Shown here: piece after piece, positions 8,190 to 50,771 of the stretch
How the letters are laid out: each line of letters starts with the position of its first letter
Position numbering within the stretch: the stretch's first letter is position 1
Origin: Acidisoma cellulosilyticum
GTDB taxonomy: Bacteria > Pseudomonadota > Alphaproteobacteria > Acetobacterales > Acetobacteraceae
Direction: 5' to 3'
Assembly: GCF_020621385.1 (NCBI RefSeq)
Contig: NZ_JAESVA010000002.1
Location: 806,001 to 870,000 of the forward strand
DNA: 64,000 nt
The notes under the pieces: model-generated
Database searches by the model: none
What the model was told of the DNA's origin: nothing
Seen by the model: the letters and a program-made list of their open reading frames with translations, nothing else
Translations under genes and position numbers: made by a program

Positions 8190-8230
8190 GGGCGCTTTCT
8201 ACAGTCTGTCAGGTTTGATCGGAAGCGCCC
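8190..8230 (+). terminator. Possible hairpin terminator after the ABC operon
   Basis: GGGCGCTTTC at 8190-8199 pairs with GGAAGCGCCC at 8221-8230 with one mismatch, leaving a loop of about 21 nt. There is no T-run, so intrinsic termination is weak at best. Its right half coincides with the conserved flank of the REP-like element at 8202-8340. Confidence 0.3.
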
Positions 8231-8340
8231 CCAAATCTGTCGTGCGCGGGCTCTGACCCGCGCATCTACCCGAGTTTGCAGGCACGCGATCGGCCAGGCG
8301 CCGCAGCGGGTAGACCCGCGGAACAAGTCCGCGGGCGACA
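8202..8340. repeat. REP-like inverted pair (BIME), copy 1
   Basis: Two facing copies of a roughly 33-nt palindromic unit: left arm 8238-8271 and right arm 8308-8340. The right arm starts GGGTAGACC, forms a hairpin CCGCGGA-ACAAG-TCCGCGG and ends GCGACA. The left arm is the same unit reversed (ends CTACCC). About 35 bases before the left arm are also shared with the copy at 12690, including CCCAAATCTGTCG. The GTAG head and hairpin match the definition of REP elements mobilised by RAYT transposases in other bacteria. No such transposase lies in this window. Confidence 0.75.
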
Positions 8341-8420
8341 AGACAACAAAAGCCGCCTTGTATCCTCATCTCCAATCCTGACCCAGGGATGTGCAGGTTT
8401 AGGCTGGCTTTCTCCGCCCC

Positions 8421-9239
8421 TCACTGCCCCGGTTTCGGATAATCCATCGTCTCCACCGCCATGGTCAGCGCCTGGAAGGGCTCGACCGAGACATGGCTTG
8501 AGCCGAGAAAGGGATTGTCGAGCAGCACGATGACGACAAGCACGAGGCCGATGGAGGCGCCGAGCAGCCCGACCATGGCCGCGTGCATCGACAGGCGTGC
8601 AGCCCCGAACAGACAGCTGAAGGTGATCAGGATGCCGGCGCCGATGGTGAGGTTCCACCAGACGACCGCCGGCAGATCGGATTCGGCGGCATGGAAGCGC
8701 CCGCGCCGCACATCATACAGCTTGCGCAATGTCTCCAGCATCGTGCTTTGCGCCGCCAATCCCGTCCCGTCCGCAGGCTTATAGCCGACGAGCGCGAGGT
8801 GGAAACTGTCGAGAATGCGCCAGCCTTTGAGATGCGCGGGCATCGCCGCTTCCATATGCGGCCATTCCTTCTGCACAACCGTTTCGGCGTAGTTGAACAG
8901 GTCCTGCCTTAGCTCAAGCGCCAGGCCGGGCGGCAGGCTGATGGTGTCCCGATAGAGATCATCCACCATATTCGCTTCCGTCTGCACCAGATTGCCGACA
9001 TCGGCGTAACTCTCCCAGACCGCAACCGCGATGAAGGCGAGCAGCACGGCGTAGATGACACCGACGATCGCCAGCACGAAGCCCGCGAGGTCGTTATGCT
9101 GGCTGCGCAGCCCATGCGGAATGATCGCATGCGCCACAAACAGGACGCCCACCGATAGCGCCGCCGAACCGAGCACGGCGATCGCGACGGCGGCGGCCGT
9201 CGGCATCAGGCACAACCATTGCGCAAAGCCTGTCAGCAT
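8421..9239 (-). CDS. DUF4239 (bestrophin-like) membrane protein
   Basis: A 272-residue membrane protein matching the DUF4239 pattern: two N-terminal helices, with HNDLAGFVLAIVGVIYAVLLAF as the conserved second helix, then VWESYADVGNLVQTEANMVDDLYR, an alpha-helical cytosolic part, and two C-terminal helices with a segment LGASIGLVLVVIVLLDNPFLG. The start at 9239 is chosen because it begins the first hydrophobic helix; the open frame runs further upstream but that part is arginine- and aspartate-rich and antisense to the next gene. The function of the family is unknown; an anion-channel relation to bestrophins has been suggested only from fold similarity. Confidence 0.75.
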   Translation of the reverse strand: MLTGFAQWLCLMPTAAAVAIAVLGSAALSVGVLFVAHAIIPHGLRSQHNDLAGFVLAIVGVIYAVLLAFIAVAVWESYADVGNLVQTEANMVDDLYRDTISLPPGLALELRQDLFNYAETVVQKEWPHMEAAMPAHLKGWRILDSFHLALVGYKPADGTGLAAQSTMLETLRKLYDVRRGRFHAAESDLPAVVWWNLTIGAGILITFSCLFGAARLSMHAAMVGLLGASIGLVLVVIVLLDNPFLGSSHVSVEPFQALTMAVETMDYPKPGQ

Positions 9240-9359
9240 CGGCCGTCCCCTATTCAACAATCCACCCGCATCATACGGGAAACGGGATCGCCGCGTTACC
9301 TTGACCGCGAAGACCGATCCAGCCTTGATAATGCGGCACTGGAACGACAGGGAGCTCGG

Positions 9360-10067
9360 ATGCCGACCATCATCCTGCCGCTCGCGGACGCGGATTTCTA
9401 TCACACGGTGCTGCTCACCTTTTCGGCGCTGTTCGCGATCGTCAATCCCGTCGTCAATGCCATCATCTTCGGCCAGATCACCGCCGATCGCACCCATCCC
9501 GAGCGGATGAGACTGGCCCGGCGCGTCGGCCTCTATTCGCTCGCTTTGCTGCTTTTCTCGCTCTGGGTCAGCTCCTATGTGCTGAATTTCTTCGGCATAT
9601 CGCTCGGCGCATTGCAGGTGGCGGGAGGATTGATCATCGCCGTCGGCGCCTGGCATTTGCTGCATACGCCGGAAAAGCGCGAGGTCGAGAAGCAAAGCCA
9701 AGTGCGGCAGGACGGCCGCACGGTTGCGGCCGAGAATGTGAACGACATCGCCTTCTTTCCGGTCAGCATTCCCTTCACCATCGGGCCAGGCACCATATCG
9801 GTCTGCATCACGCTGAGCGCCGACCGGCCCACCCACGGCTCGGTCTTGCCCTATCTTCTGGCGCTCAGCACGGCCGCTGTCGTCATGGCGATCACGATCT
9901 GGATCATCTTCAGCTTCGCCGACCGCCTGGCCCCCTTGTTCGGACGCACCGGCGCGCGCGCCATCACCCGGCTGTTCGCTCTGCTGTTGCTATGCATCGG
10001 CGTGCAGATCGTGGCGGGGGGCGTGGAGACGCTGCTGCTGCCGATCATCGCGGCCGCGAAGGGCTGA
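9360..10067 (+). CDS. MarC-family integral membrane protein (first of a tandem pair)
   Basis: A 235-residue six-helix protein of the MarC/UPF0056 family. Recognisable blocks are FSALFAIVNPVVNAIIFGQIT near the N-terminus, LQVAGGLIIAVGAWHLL in the third helix and FFPVSIPFTIGPGTISVCITL in the fourth, the last containing the family's 'P-lxxGPG-is' motif. The ATG at 9360 is preceded by AGGGAG. It is followed 10 bases later by a second MarC gene, so the two are surely co-transcribed. Despite its name, no role in antibiotic resistance has been proven for MarC; its transport substrate is unknown. Confidence 0.85.
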   Translation: MPTIILPLADADFYHTVLLTFSALFAIVNPVVNAIIFGQITADRTHPERMRLARRVGLYSLALLLFSLWVSSYVLNFFGISLGALQVAGGLIIAVGAWHLLHTPEKREVEKQSQVRQDGRTVAAENVNDIAFFPVSIPFTIGPGTISVCITLSADRPTHGSVLPYLLALSTAAVVMAITIWIIFSFADRLAPLFGRTGARAITRLFALLLLCIGVQIVAGGVETLLLPIIAAAKG

Positions 10068-10077
10068 GGGACCGGGC

Positions 10078-10788
10078 ATGCAGCTGCTTTCCGCCCTCGG
10101 CGCGTTTTCCACCCTGCCGCAAGGCCTGCTGCTGGGTTTCCCGGCGCTGTTTTCGATCACCGATCCGCTCGGCAATTCCGTCATCTTCAGCCAGATGGCG
10201 GCGGACCGCAGCCATGCCGAGCGGCGCGCCATTGCCGCGCGCGTCGGCCTCTATGCCGCACTTTTTCTGCTCGCCTCCCTGTGGGCGGGGTCGCCGGTTC
10301 TGCATTTCTTCGGTGTCAGCCTGCCGGCCCTGAAAGTCGGCGGCGGGCTGGTGGTGGCAGCCAATGGCTGGCGCCTGCTCTTTTCGGAGGAGGAGGCAGC
10401 CACCGGTCCGCCAGACGACGGCGCGGAGGAAGCGGCCGCGGCGCGACCATCGGCGGCCGATTTCGCCTTCTTCCCCATCGCGATGCCGCTGGTCGTGGGA
10501 CCGGGCGCGATCTCGGTCGCCATCACCCTCGGCGCGGCCACACCGCCCGGATTGCACACGCCCTATCTGGTCGGCGTCTCGCTGGCGGCGCTGATCGTCT
10601 GCGGGATCATCGTGCTTCTGTTTCGCTCAGCCAATGTCATCGGCCGCGTGCTGGGCCCCGCCGGATCCCGCGCCGTGAAACGGCTGGTGGCACTGCTGCT
10701 GCTCTCGATCGGCGTGCAGATCATCGCCCTCGGCCTGCAGGCGATGCTGGTGCCTTTCGTGCAGAGTGCGATTCACGCGGTGCCTTGA
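10078..10788 (+). CDS. MarC-family integral membrane protein (second of a tandem pair)
   Basis: A 236-residue paralogue of the preceding gene with the same blocks: FPALFSITDPLGNSVIFSQMA, LKVGGGLVVAANGWRLLF and FFPIAMPLVVGPGAISVAITL. The central cytosolic loop (about 100-125) is longer and acidic and differs most from the first copy. Two adjacent but clearly diverged copies suggest an old duplication and possibly a heteromeric complex; that is inference. Confidence 0.85.
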   Translation: MQLLSALGAFSTLPQGLLLGFPALFSITDPLGNSVIFSQMAADRSHAERRAIAARVGLYAALFLLASLWAGSPVLHFFGVSLPALKVGGGLVVAANGWRLLFSEEEAATGPPDDGAEEAAAARPSAADFAFFPIAMPLVVGPGAISVAITLGAATPPGLHTPYLVGVSLAALIVCGIIVLLFRSANVIGRVLGPAGSRAVKRLVALLLLSIGVQIIALGLQAMLVPFVQSAIHAVP

Positions 10789-10865
10789 ACCGTCACGCCC
10801 AGCCCCTTGCGCCCATGCCTTGCCCCGTGGAGAAGAGGAGCCCAGACCGCAGGAGAGCCAAGACA

Positions 10866-12689
10866 GTGCCGTTCAAGAAAGCACGCATCGCGATCCCCTC
10901 CTTCATTGTGCTTGTCGCTGTGGCGGCCGGCGGCGCCCAGCTTTGGGCCGAGCATCAGGCCCGCGTCCGGGTGAATGAGACCTTCGCCGCCCTGCCCGCC
11001 GGAACCACCGGTCATTATGACGATCTCCACTACAACCTGTTCACGCAGACGCTGCGGATGTCCGGCCTGTCCGTCGCCCGGGCCGGCCAGCCGCAACTGG
11101 CGGTCCAAAAGGTGGTGCTGCACCATGTCTCCGGCAACGGCACGGTCGAAACCCCCTATCGCACCAGCACGGTCACCCTCGTCGGCATCGATGTCTGGCG
11201 CGGGGCCCATCACATCAAAATCGGCGATGCCTCGGCCAAAAATGTGTCGATCCTGGCGCCCGGCATCCCGGCGCCCGCCGGCACACCGCGCTGGCTGATC
11301 GCGCCGGAGAACGGCACGCCCGTCGCGGTCGGGTCGCTTCTCGCCAATACGATCAGCGACGATCAGGGCATGAGCGTCGTCGCCTTGTCGCTCACGGATT
11401 ACCAAACCGGCCAGCTGCGGCAAATCAGCCTCAACCACTATACGGACAGCCATGGCAATACGATCGAGAACGCGGCGGCGACGGCCGTCGATCTCGACGG
11501 GCTCGACCGTGTCTTCAACCCGGCGCGCTATACGCCGGACGCAGAAAGCTGGACCGCGCCGCGCCCGCTTCTTGGCCATCTGGAGATTGCCAATCTCACC
11601 ACCAAGGGCCGGCAACGCGACAGCCATTTTGATCATCTGACGCTCGATACCCTGACAGGTCGGCCCTTTGCCGCCGCCCCGATGCCCGAGACCGTCAAAA
11701 CCCCTGCTTTCGCGCGGGATGCGGCCGCCGCCATCGGCATCGGCAATGCGACTGTCGTCAACCTCACGCTTCAGGACAGCGGCACCGCGTCGACAGCGAT
11801 CATCAATCACGTCGCACTCACCGGCTATTCGGATGGGGCCGTCGGCCGCTTCGCCATCGGTCATGTCACGGTGCAGGAGAAAGGCAAGACCACCGCCAGC
11901 CTGGGCCATTTCGAGTTCAGCGGCCTGAATGCGACCGCCCTGCTGCATGCGCCGGCGGATGCCTCGCTCAGTGACCTGGTCGCCACGGCCCAGAATGGCG
12001 GGCTGAAGCTCTCCAGTCTCGCTATCGCCGGTCTCAGCGCCCCCTTGCCCAATGGCGGCACGGTGACGCTGAAGGATCTGAAGGACAGCGTCACCTACGG
12101 CACGCCCGTCCAGACAGATATGTCCCTGAACGGCCTCAGCATTCCGGCCGTGGCGACGCCTGACCTGGAGAAGCTGCTGCAGCCGCTCGGCATCGACCCG
12201 CTGGTGCTCTCCTTCTCCGAGCGCGGCAGCTACGACGAGGCGAGCGGCGATACGCATCTCGATGCGTCCAAGCTCTCCGCCGCAGGCCTCGGCAGCATCA
12301 GCTTGAGCGGCCAGTTCACCAATCTGCCCCGCAGCCTGCCGGCGAACGACGATTTCGCCGCGGCGCTCGGCCAGACGGGCATCGGTGCCTTCCGCATCAG
12401 TTTCAGCAATGAAAGCCTGGTGCAGCGGATCACCGCCATGATGGCGAAACAGGCGGGCAAAACCCCGGCCGAGATCACCGACGGCGCGCGCGCCGCAGCG
12501 GCCTTCTTCGCGGCCGCGCTGGTGCCGGGTCAGGCTGATGCCGGGGTGCAGATCGCGAACTTCCTGAGCGATCCGAAGACCCTAACCCTGACAGCGGCCC
12601 CGGCGGCGCCAGTGGCGGTCGGGTCCTTCACCGGAGCCGACCTTCATGCCGCGCAGGCGGCGCTGAATTTGCACCTGTCGGCGAATTAG
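10866..12689 (+). CDS. Large membrane-anchored or secreted protein of unknown function
   Basis: A GTG start at 10866 with AGGAGA about 9 nt upstream gives 607 residues. An N-terminal hydrophobic segment (about 8-25, ARIAIPSFIVLVAVAAGGA) is an uncleaved anchor or a signal peptide. The rest is soluble and repetitive in style, with many short beta-prone blocks rich in Gly, Thr, Ala and Leu such as LHYNLFTQTLRMSGLSVARAG, FEFSGLNATALLHAP and LSAAGLGSISLSGQFTNLP. The layout (anchor plus a long periplasmic domain, with an early 'YDDLHYNLFTQTLRMSGLSV' strand pair) recalls AsmA- or DUF945/YdgA-like proteins, but I do not recognise a family with certainty. It follows the MarC pair by 77 bases and may share their transcript. 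Confidence 0.7.
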   Translation: MPFKKARIAIPSFIVLVAVAAGGAQLWAEHQARVRVNETFAALPAGTTGHYDDLHYNLFTQTLRMSGLSVARAGQPQLAVQKVVLHHVSGNGTVETPYRTSTVTLVGIDVWRGAHHIKIGDASAKNVSILAPGIPAPAGTPRWLIAPENGTPVAVGSLLANTISDDQGMSVVALSLTDYQTGQLRQISLNHYTDSHGNTIENAAATAVDLDGLDRVFNPARYTPDAESWTAPRPLLGHLEIANLTTKGRQRDSHFDHLTLDTLTGRPFAAAPMPETVKTPAFARDAAAAIGIGNATVVNLTLQDSGTASTAIINHVALTGYSDGAVGRFAIGHVTVQEKGKTTASLGHFEFSGLNATALLHAPADASLSDLVATAQNGGLKLSSLAIAGLSAPLPNGGTVTLKDLKDSVTYGTPVQTDMSLNGLSIPAVATPDLEKLLQPLGIDPLVLSFSERGSYDEASGDTHLDASKLSAAGLGSISLSGQFTNLPRSLPANDDFAAALGQTGIGAFRISFSNESLVQRITAMMAKQAGKTPAEITDGARAAAAFFAAALVPGQADAGVQIANFLSDPKTLTLTAAPAAPVAVGSFTGADLHAAQAALNLHLSAN

Positions 12690-12824
12690 AGTCCGTCTGG
12701 TCTAGTTGGAAACGACCCAAATCTGTCGCCCGCGGCCTCGTGCCGCGGGTCTACCCGTTCCGGCGCCCAGACGCCGATGTGGCGCGGCGGAGGGTAGGTC
12801 CGCGCAACAAGTGCGCGGATGACA
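12690..12824. repeat. REP-like inverted pair (BIME), copy 2
   Basis: Same architecture as the copy at 8202: left arm 12724-12756 (TGTCGCC...TCTACCC) and right arm 12792-12824 (GGGTAGGTCCGCGC-AACAAG-TGCGCGGATGACA). The stem bases differ from copy 1 but still pair, for example CGCGC with GCGCG instead of CGCGG with CCGCG. The flank before the left arm (AGTCCGTCTGG...) is also shared with copy 1. It lies between the convergent ends of the unknown protein and the flavin reductase. Confidence 0.75.
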
Positions 12825-49822: not shown

Positions 49823-50707
49823 TCAACGCAAGAGCATTGTTTCGTGGGACTGAGACCATGTGGTCAGCGCCACCCCGGCCGATCGGAAGGCATCGGCCAG
49901 GCGCGGGCTGGTCAAGGCGGCAAGCTCTGCCTCATGCTCATAGCTTGGCATAAAACGATCCAGCAGCGCGTCGCGGCCGGCCGCCGGGTGGAAATAGAGT
50001 TCCGAAAGGCCCGGCGGCAGGCGGGGAATGAGCCGTAGCAGCCGATCCTCGGTCATATGGCCGCTCCAGGCGATGCCGAAGGCATGGTCATTGGTCTGCA
50101 GTTTGGCCCGCCGCGCTTGCCCGCGCAGCAACTGCGTCCAGGCCAGCAGCGCCCGCGCGCCAGGACCCTGCGGAACATCAAGGGATGCCATGACACCCGC
50201 CGGCTCGGCCGGAATGCGCAGCGCGCGCAGGCCGTATTGCTGGCCGGCCGCGATCATCATCTGCCCGACGACAGGATGCAGATGCATATGCTTATGGGCA
50301 TTGGCATGGTCCAGCGTCAGGCCGGTCGCGGCGAAGGTGCGGAATTGCGCCGCGATCTCCCGGCTCAACTGCGCCCGCACCCGCGCGTTGAAGGCGTAGC
50401 GCAGGCCAAGGCCGAGCTGATCCGAGGGGATGCGCCCCTCCCCGTCCAACAGCGCCGCGATCTCCCCCGGCGGCAGAACCGCCGGACCTTCGATGGCGAC
50501 GATATGCAGGCCGAGCTTCAGATCCGGCATCGTCCGCGCCCGGCGCAGGGCATCGACGGCGGCGTCGCCCGCGACCATCAGGCTCGCGGTCGACAGCAGC
50601 CCATTGCGATGGGCGCGCTCGATACCCTCATTGACGGCGATGGACAGGCCGAAATCATCGGCGGAGATGATGGCGCGGCGGCGATCATCCGTCATGCGCG
50701 GCGTCAT
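49823..50707 (-). CDS. hpnK: Hopanoid deacetylase HpnK (YdjC/ChbG family)
   Basis: A 294-residue carbohydrate deacetylase-like protein. Metal-site residues of the YdjC fold are visible: IISADDFGLSIAVNEGI (Asp pair), LKLGLHI (His) and LDHANAHKHMHLHP (His cluster). Beside HpnI and HpnJ it is expected to deacetylate N-acetylglucosaminyl bacteriohopanetetrol to the glucosamine form, as shown for Burkholderia. Two in-frame ATGs (50707 and 50695) both lie inside the left arm of a REP-like palindrome, so the natural start may have been replaced by the insertion. The gap to hpnJ is 84 bases. Confidence 0.85.
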   Translation of the reverse strand: MTPRMTDDRRRAIISADDFGLSIAVNEGIERAHRNGLLSTASLMVAGDAAVDALRRARTMPDLKLGLHIVAIEGPAVLPPGEIAALLDGEGRIPSDQLGLGLRYAFNARVRAQLSREIAAQFRTFAATGLTLDHANAHKHMHLHPVVGQMMIAAGQQYGLRALRIPAEPAGVMASLDVPQGPGARALLAWTQLLRGQARRAKLQTNDHAFGIAWSGHMTEDRLLRLIPRLPPGLSELYFHPAAGRDALLDRFMPSYEHEAELAALTSPRLADAFRSAGVALTTWSQSHETMLLR

Positions 50708-50771
50708 GCCGCGTACCTACCCGTGGTGGTGCCGTCAGCGGTAGACCCGCGTGACAAGCACGCGGGCGACA
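50690..50771. repeat. REP-like inverted pair (BIME), copy 3, overlapping the start of hpnK
   Basis: Left arm 50690-50722 (CGTCATGCGCGGC...CTACCC) and right arm 50739-50771 (CGGTAGACCCGCGTG-ACAAG-CACGCGGGCGACA). The right arm shares GGTAGACC, the ACAAG loop and the GCGACA end with the copy at 8308; its stem pair differs but is compensated (GTG with CAC). The spacer between the arms is only 16 bases, shorter than in copies 1 and 2, and the flank before the left arm is hpnK coding sequence. Confidence 0.65.

Follow-up and report, generated by a model that had tools for sequence, protein, structure and literature searches.

What are the facing palindromes that recur along a 64-kb stretch of the Acidisoma cellulosilyticum genome, and what has spread them? 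The stretch analyzed here (contig NZ_JAESVA010000002.1, positions 806,001 to 870,000; hereafter the window) holds six palindromic arms that form three facing pairs, referred to as doublets 1, 2, and 3. Because copies of such repeats closely flank small GIY-YIG nuclease genes, the nuclease is a strong candidate for the missing mobility enzyme of the CGTC class of repetitive extragenic palindromes (REPs). We lean, with moderate confidence, toward the doublets being nonautonomous CGTC-like REPs that a cognate GIY-YIG nuclease spreads or once spread; such a nuclease would be an analogue, built on an unrelated enzyme, of the REP-associated tyrosine (RAYT) transposases. The association between palindromes and gene is strong, and support for the mechanism is moderate.

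Structure and dispersal of the palindromes

Doublet 1 consists of a left arm at 8238-8270 on the minus strand (46.3 bits), a palindrome with an 8-bp stem and a 6-base loop, and a right arm at 8309-8340 on the plus strand (52.4 bits). The corresponding minus- and plus-strand arms lie at 12724-12755 (51.6 bits) and 12793-12824 (49.5 bits) in doublet 2 and at 50690-50721 (42.3 bits) and 50740-50771 (51.1 bits) in doublet 3. Stems are 8 bp long and loops 5 bases, the exceptions being the longer loop of the 8238 arm and one A.C mismatch in the 50690 arm. The six arms, their facing pairs, and the compensatory stem changes of the right arms (GGA/TCC, GCA/TGC, and GTG/CAC) lie where an earlier sequence-only reading had placed them. 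The GGTAG head that it described is the 5' start of all six, and its GACA end is found in five, the 50690 arm ending in GACG. The spans that it gave for the first two doublets (8202-8340 and 12690-12824) are right for the arms but include a left extension that is the end of a different element, considered below. The arm pattern, with up to three mismatches, occurs four times in the window versus not once in any of 100 shuffles. As single-stranded DNA, all three doublets fold more stably than any of 200 shuffles (z of -5.8, -5.2, and -3.0). The predicted fold of the two longer ones is a cloverleaf, with the TGTC foot paired to GACA, a hairpin in either arm, and a central stem formed by the CTAC and GTAG heads. 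A search of Rfam returned no match at the gathering score.

In the 6.0-Mb genome, a covariance model built from the six arms detected at least 150 arms (E <= 0.01); the count is a minimum, as scoring covered 150 of the 5340 first-look candidates. These arms make up 119 loci, 31 listed as pairs and 88 as single arms whose partners are possibly missing or merely unscored. Among the listed pairs, 23 are minus-plus, 6 plus-minus, and 2 direct, and 16 are spaced 69-70 nucleotides (nt) apart. The family is depleted in long open reading frames (ORFs): the locus midpoint falls within an ORF of at least 150 amino acids (aa) at 18 of 60 loci drawn at random from the 119, versus about 47 of 60 positions near the ends of the same stretches. 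The genome search thus bears out a REP-like family of inverted pairs, dispersed and mostly outside long ORFs, with compensatory stems and variable presence between related genomes.

Covariation extends well beyond the window. In 29 distinct arms of this genome, chosen on the basis of their flanks alone, pairing holds in 229 of 232 stem cells, versus a mean of 78.8% and a maximum of 84.9% when the halves were re-dealt 1000 times. The covariation in the sequence-only reading therefore stands. Its corollary, selection for the folded form, is plausible but is not the sole explanation, since template switching within palindromes likewise yields paired changes. Among fixed-length arms of this genome, the loop is ACAAG in 34 of 58 and ACGAG in 18. 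Unequal stems within a doublet would favor the cloverleaf over a single long hairpin: equal stems in both arms were seen in none of 60 doublets of this genome (5.4-5.8 expected, copies related by descent not being separated) versus 17 of 45 doublets in named loci, so that unequal stems are no general rule. Two further features of the arms were observed. The bases just before and after the 8-bp stem are A.C in 33 of 58 arms and G.T in the other 25. A.T and G.C are absent, as though a mismatch were imposed, but both occur at this position in arms of two related genomes (G003 and G004). At one locus (L028, 971-1463), a facing arm is preceded by six arms on a common strand, spaced about 92 nt, of which one matches weakly.

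The window-family model detected arms in 8 of 60 genomes, A. cellulosilyticum included. Within the genus set of five genomes (G000 to G004, again including A. cellulosilyticum), scored arms number 119 in G000, 70 in G003, 98 in G004, 1 in G001, and 0 in G002; four other genomes carry 1 to 5. At the site of doublet 1, G003 has no doublet, with about 65 nt between the aligned flanks versus 268 in the window, and G001 and G004 have other DNA. By eye, a small toxin-antitoxin gene pair replaces the repeat in G004 (L265, about 2190-2660). At the site of doublet 2, the doublet is missing from G001, and in G004 another, GGAT-headed one takes its place. These comparisons cover G001, G003, and G004 at the first site and G001 and G004 at the second. 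Since the presence of doublets differs between related genomes, the repeats come and go within the genus.

GIY-YIG genes and their flanking palindromes

The first lead was a genome (G038) whose repeats adjoin a small GIY-YIG gene. In A. cellulosilyticum, the GIY-YIG model PF01541 matches two stand-alone genes of 97 aa each, with a third match in a 654-aa frame. One stand-alone gene (L098) lies between two window-family doublets, the nearer only 15 nt away, and the other (L097) lies 20 nt ahead of a GGAT-headed doublet. The sequence-only reading had pointed to a RAYT gene flanked by the same palindrome; a mobility gene so flanked does exist in this genome, but it encodes a GIY-YIG nuclease. Stand-alone GIY-YIG genes number two each in G000, G003, and G004, and palindromes lie beside or around all six (four by model matches, two by eye); one of the G003 genes carries an in-frame TGA. 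No GIY-YIG gene was found at E <= 1e-15 in G001 and G002, where a single arm and no arm were scored. Operator-like short palindromes were also seen at the genes themselves, one overlapping the start codon at L097 (1466-1501) and one, by eye, just before the gene at L187.

In a wider scan with four such proteins as queries, 560 loci were confirmed, of which the 80 with the highest protein similarity were kept; two of the queries come from G038 and were first noticed beside palindromes, and the matches may lean to that clade. Adding 57 whole-genome loci and removing the two loci from A. cellulosilyticum and the two from G038 that gave the idea left 133 loci, four of them from G003 and G004 and one a further G038 locus, with enough flank in 128. 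An arm lies within 200 nt at 75 of these 128 loci (upstream at 68, downstream at 60) versus 7 of 72 control genes on the same stretches. Arms on both sides were found at 53 loci versus a single control gene, and 46 of these two-sided layouts are inverted (32 with a minus arm upstream and a plus arm downstream, 14 the reverse), the remaining 7 being direct. Under a looser count, in which some hairpins look like chance, an arm lies within 350 nt at 55 of the 80 scan loci (52 under a stricter one), and arms are ten times as dense near the gene as at distances over 1 kb.

The two flanks of a gene also resemble each other. Flank-to-flank alignment at 129 loci gave a mean score of 30.6 for the same gene versus 11.2 for crossed flanks (1500 pairs) and 9.0 for shuffled ones, a pattern that neutral accumulation of a single common repeat would not produce. 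The genome G145 carries ten GIY-YIG genes whose DNA identity does not exceed 67% and whose palindromes differ for the most part. When its flanks were re-dealt, the observed total was reached in 1 of 100000 trials, and the gene's own partner ranked first for six genes and second for three. Furthermore, own partners rank first or second for every gene of G314 and G116, which have four each.

Across 289 genomes of the class, the gene is present in 32 of 45 with at least five copies of a strict arm pattern versus 60 of 244 others (odds ratio 7.5, uncorrected for phylogeny). This strict class-wide pattern misses other heads and loops, and the 44 gene-bearing genomes without it are thus no evidence of palindrome absence. 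Outside the Proteobacteria, a GIY-YIG gene bracketed by matching palindromes was noticed in Candidatus Nomurabacteria (L130).

The complete unit was observed once as an insertion. In G004, a palindrome, a GIY-YIG gene, and a second palindrome make up about 375 nt within a net insert of 422-425 nt, which splits an ABC-transporter gene pair (urea-type by eye only). The unit is absent from all four relatives: in the alignments, 1-13 nt separate these flanks in G000, G001, G002, and G003.

PF01541 scores 37.3-66.6 bits for four of the proteins against a cut-off of 22.6, 126 of 133 proteins retain the full set of six catalytic-type residues, and the matched stretches are free of in-frame stops in 128 of 133. 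A simple count for G000 and G004 orthologues at the same place gave 0.08 nonsynonymous and 1.09 synonymous substitutions per site (dN and dS). The structure model has a predicted local distance difference test score of 94.9, and its best PDB fold matches are UPF0213 proteins, then, weakly, Slx1 and I-TevI. Slx1 cuts branched DNA, and the modeled fold likeness suits a nuclease that would act on an extruded doublet. A 32-row profile matched the PDB entries 1ZG2 (3.4e-07) and 1YWL (0.00031); a phmmer search of the PDB with one nuclease returned nothing. PADLOC gave no match for three of the nuclease proteins, and NCBIfam gave one weak match among four, below its cut-off.

Competing explanations for the spread of the doublets

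Under the nuclease-driven reading, the complete mobile element would be a stand-alone GIY-YIG nuclease gene between two palindromes, and the window doublets would be its nonautonomous copies. A doublet may extrude as a cloverleaf, with pairing of foot to foot, two 8-bp hairpins, and a central stem of head and head; the cognate small nuclease would recognize this hairpin or junction and cut it, and through the DNA so released or repaired a new copy would reach another intergenic place. That the nuclease cuts the palindromes, and that this cutting moves them, we infer. The wider proposal, in which CGTC REPs and stand-alone COG2827-type GIY-YIG nucleases would form one large bacterial mobile-element superfamily, made up of genes with a palindrome on either side and of nonautonomous doublets derived from them, every nuclease being matched to a palindrome of its own, is in our judgment evenly poised.

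Several observations weigh against this reading. No arm lies within 200 nt of 53 of the 128 GIY-YIG genes, and for one of the ten G145 genes, its own flank partner ranked last. In the class-wide comparison, a gene match at E <= 1e-15 is missing from 13 of the 45 genomes with at least five pattern copies, and with the bar set at 20 copies the link is weaker (11 of 20 genomes versus 81 of 269; odds ratio 2.8, p 0.026, uncorrected for phylogeny); the co-occurrence statistics ignore the kinship of the genomes throughout. Where G000 and G004 share a gene at one place, the palindromes differ between the two, so the gene seems to have been inherited and not to have moved recently. The edges of the G004 insert do not match the palindrome ends: the insert runs past the unit that the palindromes bound by about 35-47 nt at one end and by 12-16 nt at the other. 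None of the PDB fold matches of the nuclease model reaches E <= 0.001. Finally, 25 of 60 sampled loci in A. cellulosilyticum carry the ends of another element, which could account for some of the copies in a different way.

This other element has the features of a TA-type miniature inverted-repeat transposable element (MITE). Its left terminal repeat lies by doublet 1 at 8203-8231 and by doublet 2 at 12690-12718, both on the plus strand; the latter sits at the upstream ORF's stop codon. Neither place yielded a right terminal repeat, no terminal repeat accompanies doublet 3, and the window holds no complete MITE. The end (AGTCYGTCAGGTTT...) has 77 matches genome-wide with up to three mismatches, and such ends enclose both GTAG-headed and GGAT-headed doublets. 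At the 60 sampled loci, ends stand on both sides at 17 and on one side at 8. By eye, they read YTA...TAR, like the terminal repeats of TA-target MITEs of the IS630 type, a likeness confined to some copies, as the other 35 sampled loci have no ends. It is quite unlikely that the window copies are simply parts of an IS630-like MITE with the palindromes merely interior: these matches, and a left end at two of the three window doublets, would fit, but more than half of the sampled loci and doublet 3 are without ends, and 24 loci of other genomes gave a single 4-mismatch match, far from the arm. PF13358 (DDE_3, IS630) matches four fragments on three small contigs of the A. cellulosilyticum genome, which have no such ends apart from one 4-mismatch match, and no autonomous parent with these ends was found. 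A purely MITE-interior origin was dropped as the whole explanation, given that other genomes carry doublets without those ends. In this genome, a separate TA-type MITE has also picked up doublets and may have spread some of them.

A homing parasite is somewhat easier to entertain, although we still consider it unlikely: the GIY-YIG gene would cleave existing REP doublets as targets and copy itself into them by repair, and the doublets would multiply otherwise. GIY-YIG homing enzymes are an established kind, the commonest two-sided layout (32 of 53) sets the gene within a doublet, between a minus and a plus arm, and many-copy genomes with no gene at the threshold used do exist (13 of 45). However, the ten G145 genes with their largely different palindromes would require many separate target families, the reverse layout (14 of 53) places the gene as between whole doublets, and the G004 insertion site has no doublet in any of the four relatives. 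We find it very improbable that palindromes and GIY-YIG genes are bystanders that tolerate the same intergenic gaps, the palindromes acting only as RNA or topology elements. The avoidance of long ORFs by the arms (18 of 60 versus about 47 of 60) would agree with it, but control genes (7 of 72) and Y1 transposase genes (0 of 8) mostly have no arms, and a gene's two flanks are much closer to one another than to the flanks of other genes. Mobilization by a RAYT as a GTAG-class REP or bacterial interspersed mosaic element, the proposal of the sequence-only reading, is scarcely credible. The GTAG head, short hairpin, and inverted pairing agree with it, and the Y1 model PF01797 is present in 10 of the 60 genomes searched (A. 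cellulosilyticum among the 60), including G004 of the same genus. Nevertheless, PF01797 has no match in the 98.5%-complete genome of A. cellulosilyticum, no arm lies within 450 nt (or up to the end of the available sequence) of any of eight Y1 loci from other genomes, and the loop and foot resemble the CGTC class; the RAYT reading was rejected on the first two of these results.

As to the surroundings of the window copies, doublets 1 and 2 are intergenic, and the neighboring ORFs match ABC-transporter, bestrophin-like, and flavin-reductase models; the ORF at 10281-12689 has no model match. Doublet 3 lies between two minus-strand ORFs, one YdjC-like and one radical SAM, and shares 18 nt with the predicted start of the YdjC-like ORF.

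Comparison with known repeat and nuclease systems

Judged from their sequence, the window palindromes are a close variant of the described CGTC REP class. Read on the other strand, an arm consists of TGTC or CGTC, an 8-bp stem, a 5-base loop, the returning stem, and CTACC. The passages of Di Nocera et al. (2013; PMC3733652) on which we draw describe CGTC REPs as mainly alpha-proteobacterial, with a CGTC foot (TGTC and CCTC variants), stems of 8-9 bp, loops of 4-5 bases, and head-to-head dimers, heterodimers being common; the first two stem pairs are almost invariably A-T, the tail is mostly CCA, and four families were published. The unpaired TGTC/CGTC foot, stem and loop sizes, many copies, and head-to-head dimers are alike in both. 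In contrast, the window family has a CTACC tail (GTAG on the other strand), and its stems often start with C-G. Because the tail and first stem pairs depart, it is placed as a close variant outside the four published families, and the novelty of form suggested by the sequence-only reading is only partly right, given the resemblance to CGTC REPs. The GGAT-headed sister family of the same genome fits, by eye, both the A-T stem start and the CCA tail.

The same passages present CGTC repeats as not tied to transposase genes and apparently without a dedicated transposase, leaving their mobilization open, whereas a GIY-YIG gene is linked to the repeats described here. CGTC REPs occur in many alphaproteobacteria (PMC3733652), and a specific, small enzyme as candidate brings the question of their mobilization within reach of bench experiments. 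On the nuclease side, the proteins share the short single domain of the stand-alone GIY-YIG proteins of COG2827 and UPF0213 (1ZG2 and 1YWL), and the profile match agrees. Three stand-alone COG2827 genes are reported in Caulobacter crescentus, their role left open in the part of that paper relied on here, and words beginning with palindrom- or repeat are absent from its main text (PMC1839093). The nuclease link would give such genes a role. One gene table names both a RAYT and a GIY-YIG gene, unlinked there (PMC9465073). No literature linking GIY-YIG or COG2827 genes with REP palindromes was found in open-access PubMed Central (PMC), and an earlier report elsewhere is possible. If the superfamily reading is true, it would describe a class of bacterial transposable elements whose sole enzyme is a minimal GIY-YIG structure-specific nuclease, present across the Alphaproteobacteria and, by the single example of L130, beyond the Proteobacteria.

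A further parallel is with GTAG REPs and their RAYTs, organized as REP doublets forming hairpins (REPINs). In the parts of the REPIN report considered here (PMC3116915), an inverted REP doublet is the unit, and a cognate single-gene enzyme lies near the same repeat, as in the palindromes described here; excision of REPINs was measured there by deep sequencing. The window family shows inverted doublets and presence or absence between species, and its doublet may, as in a REPIN, be the replicating unit. The enzyme is a Y1 transposase there, whereas a GIY-YIG nuclease is linked to the repeats here. If this nuclease moves the repeats, the pairing of a REP with its own enzyme would have evolved at least twice, with unrelated enzymes.

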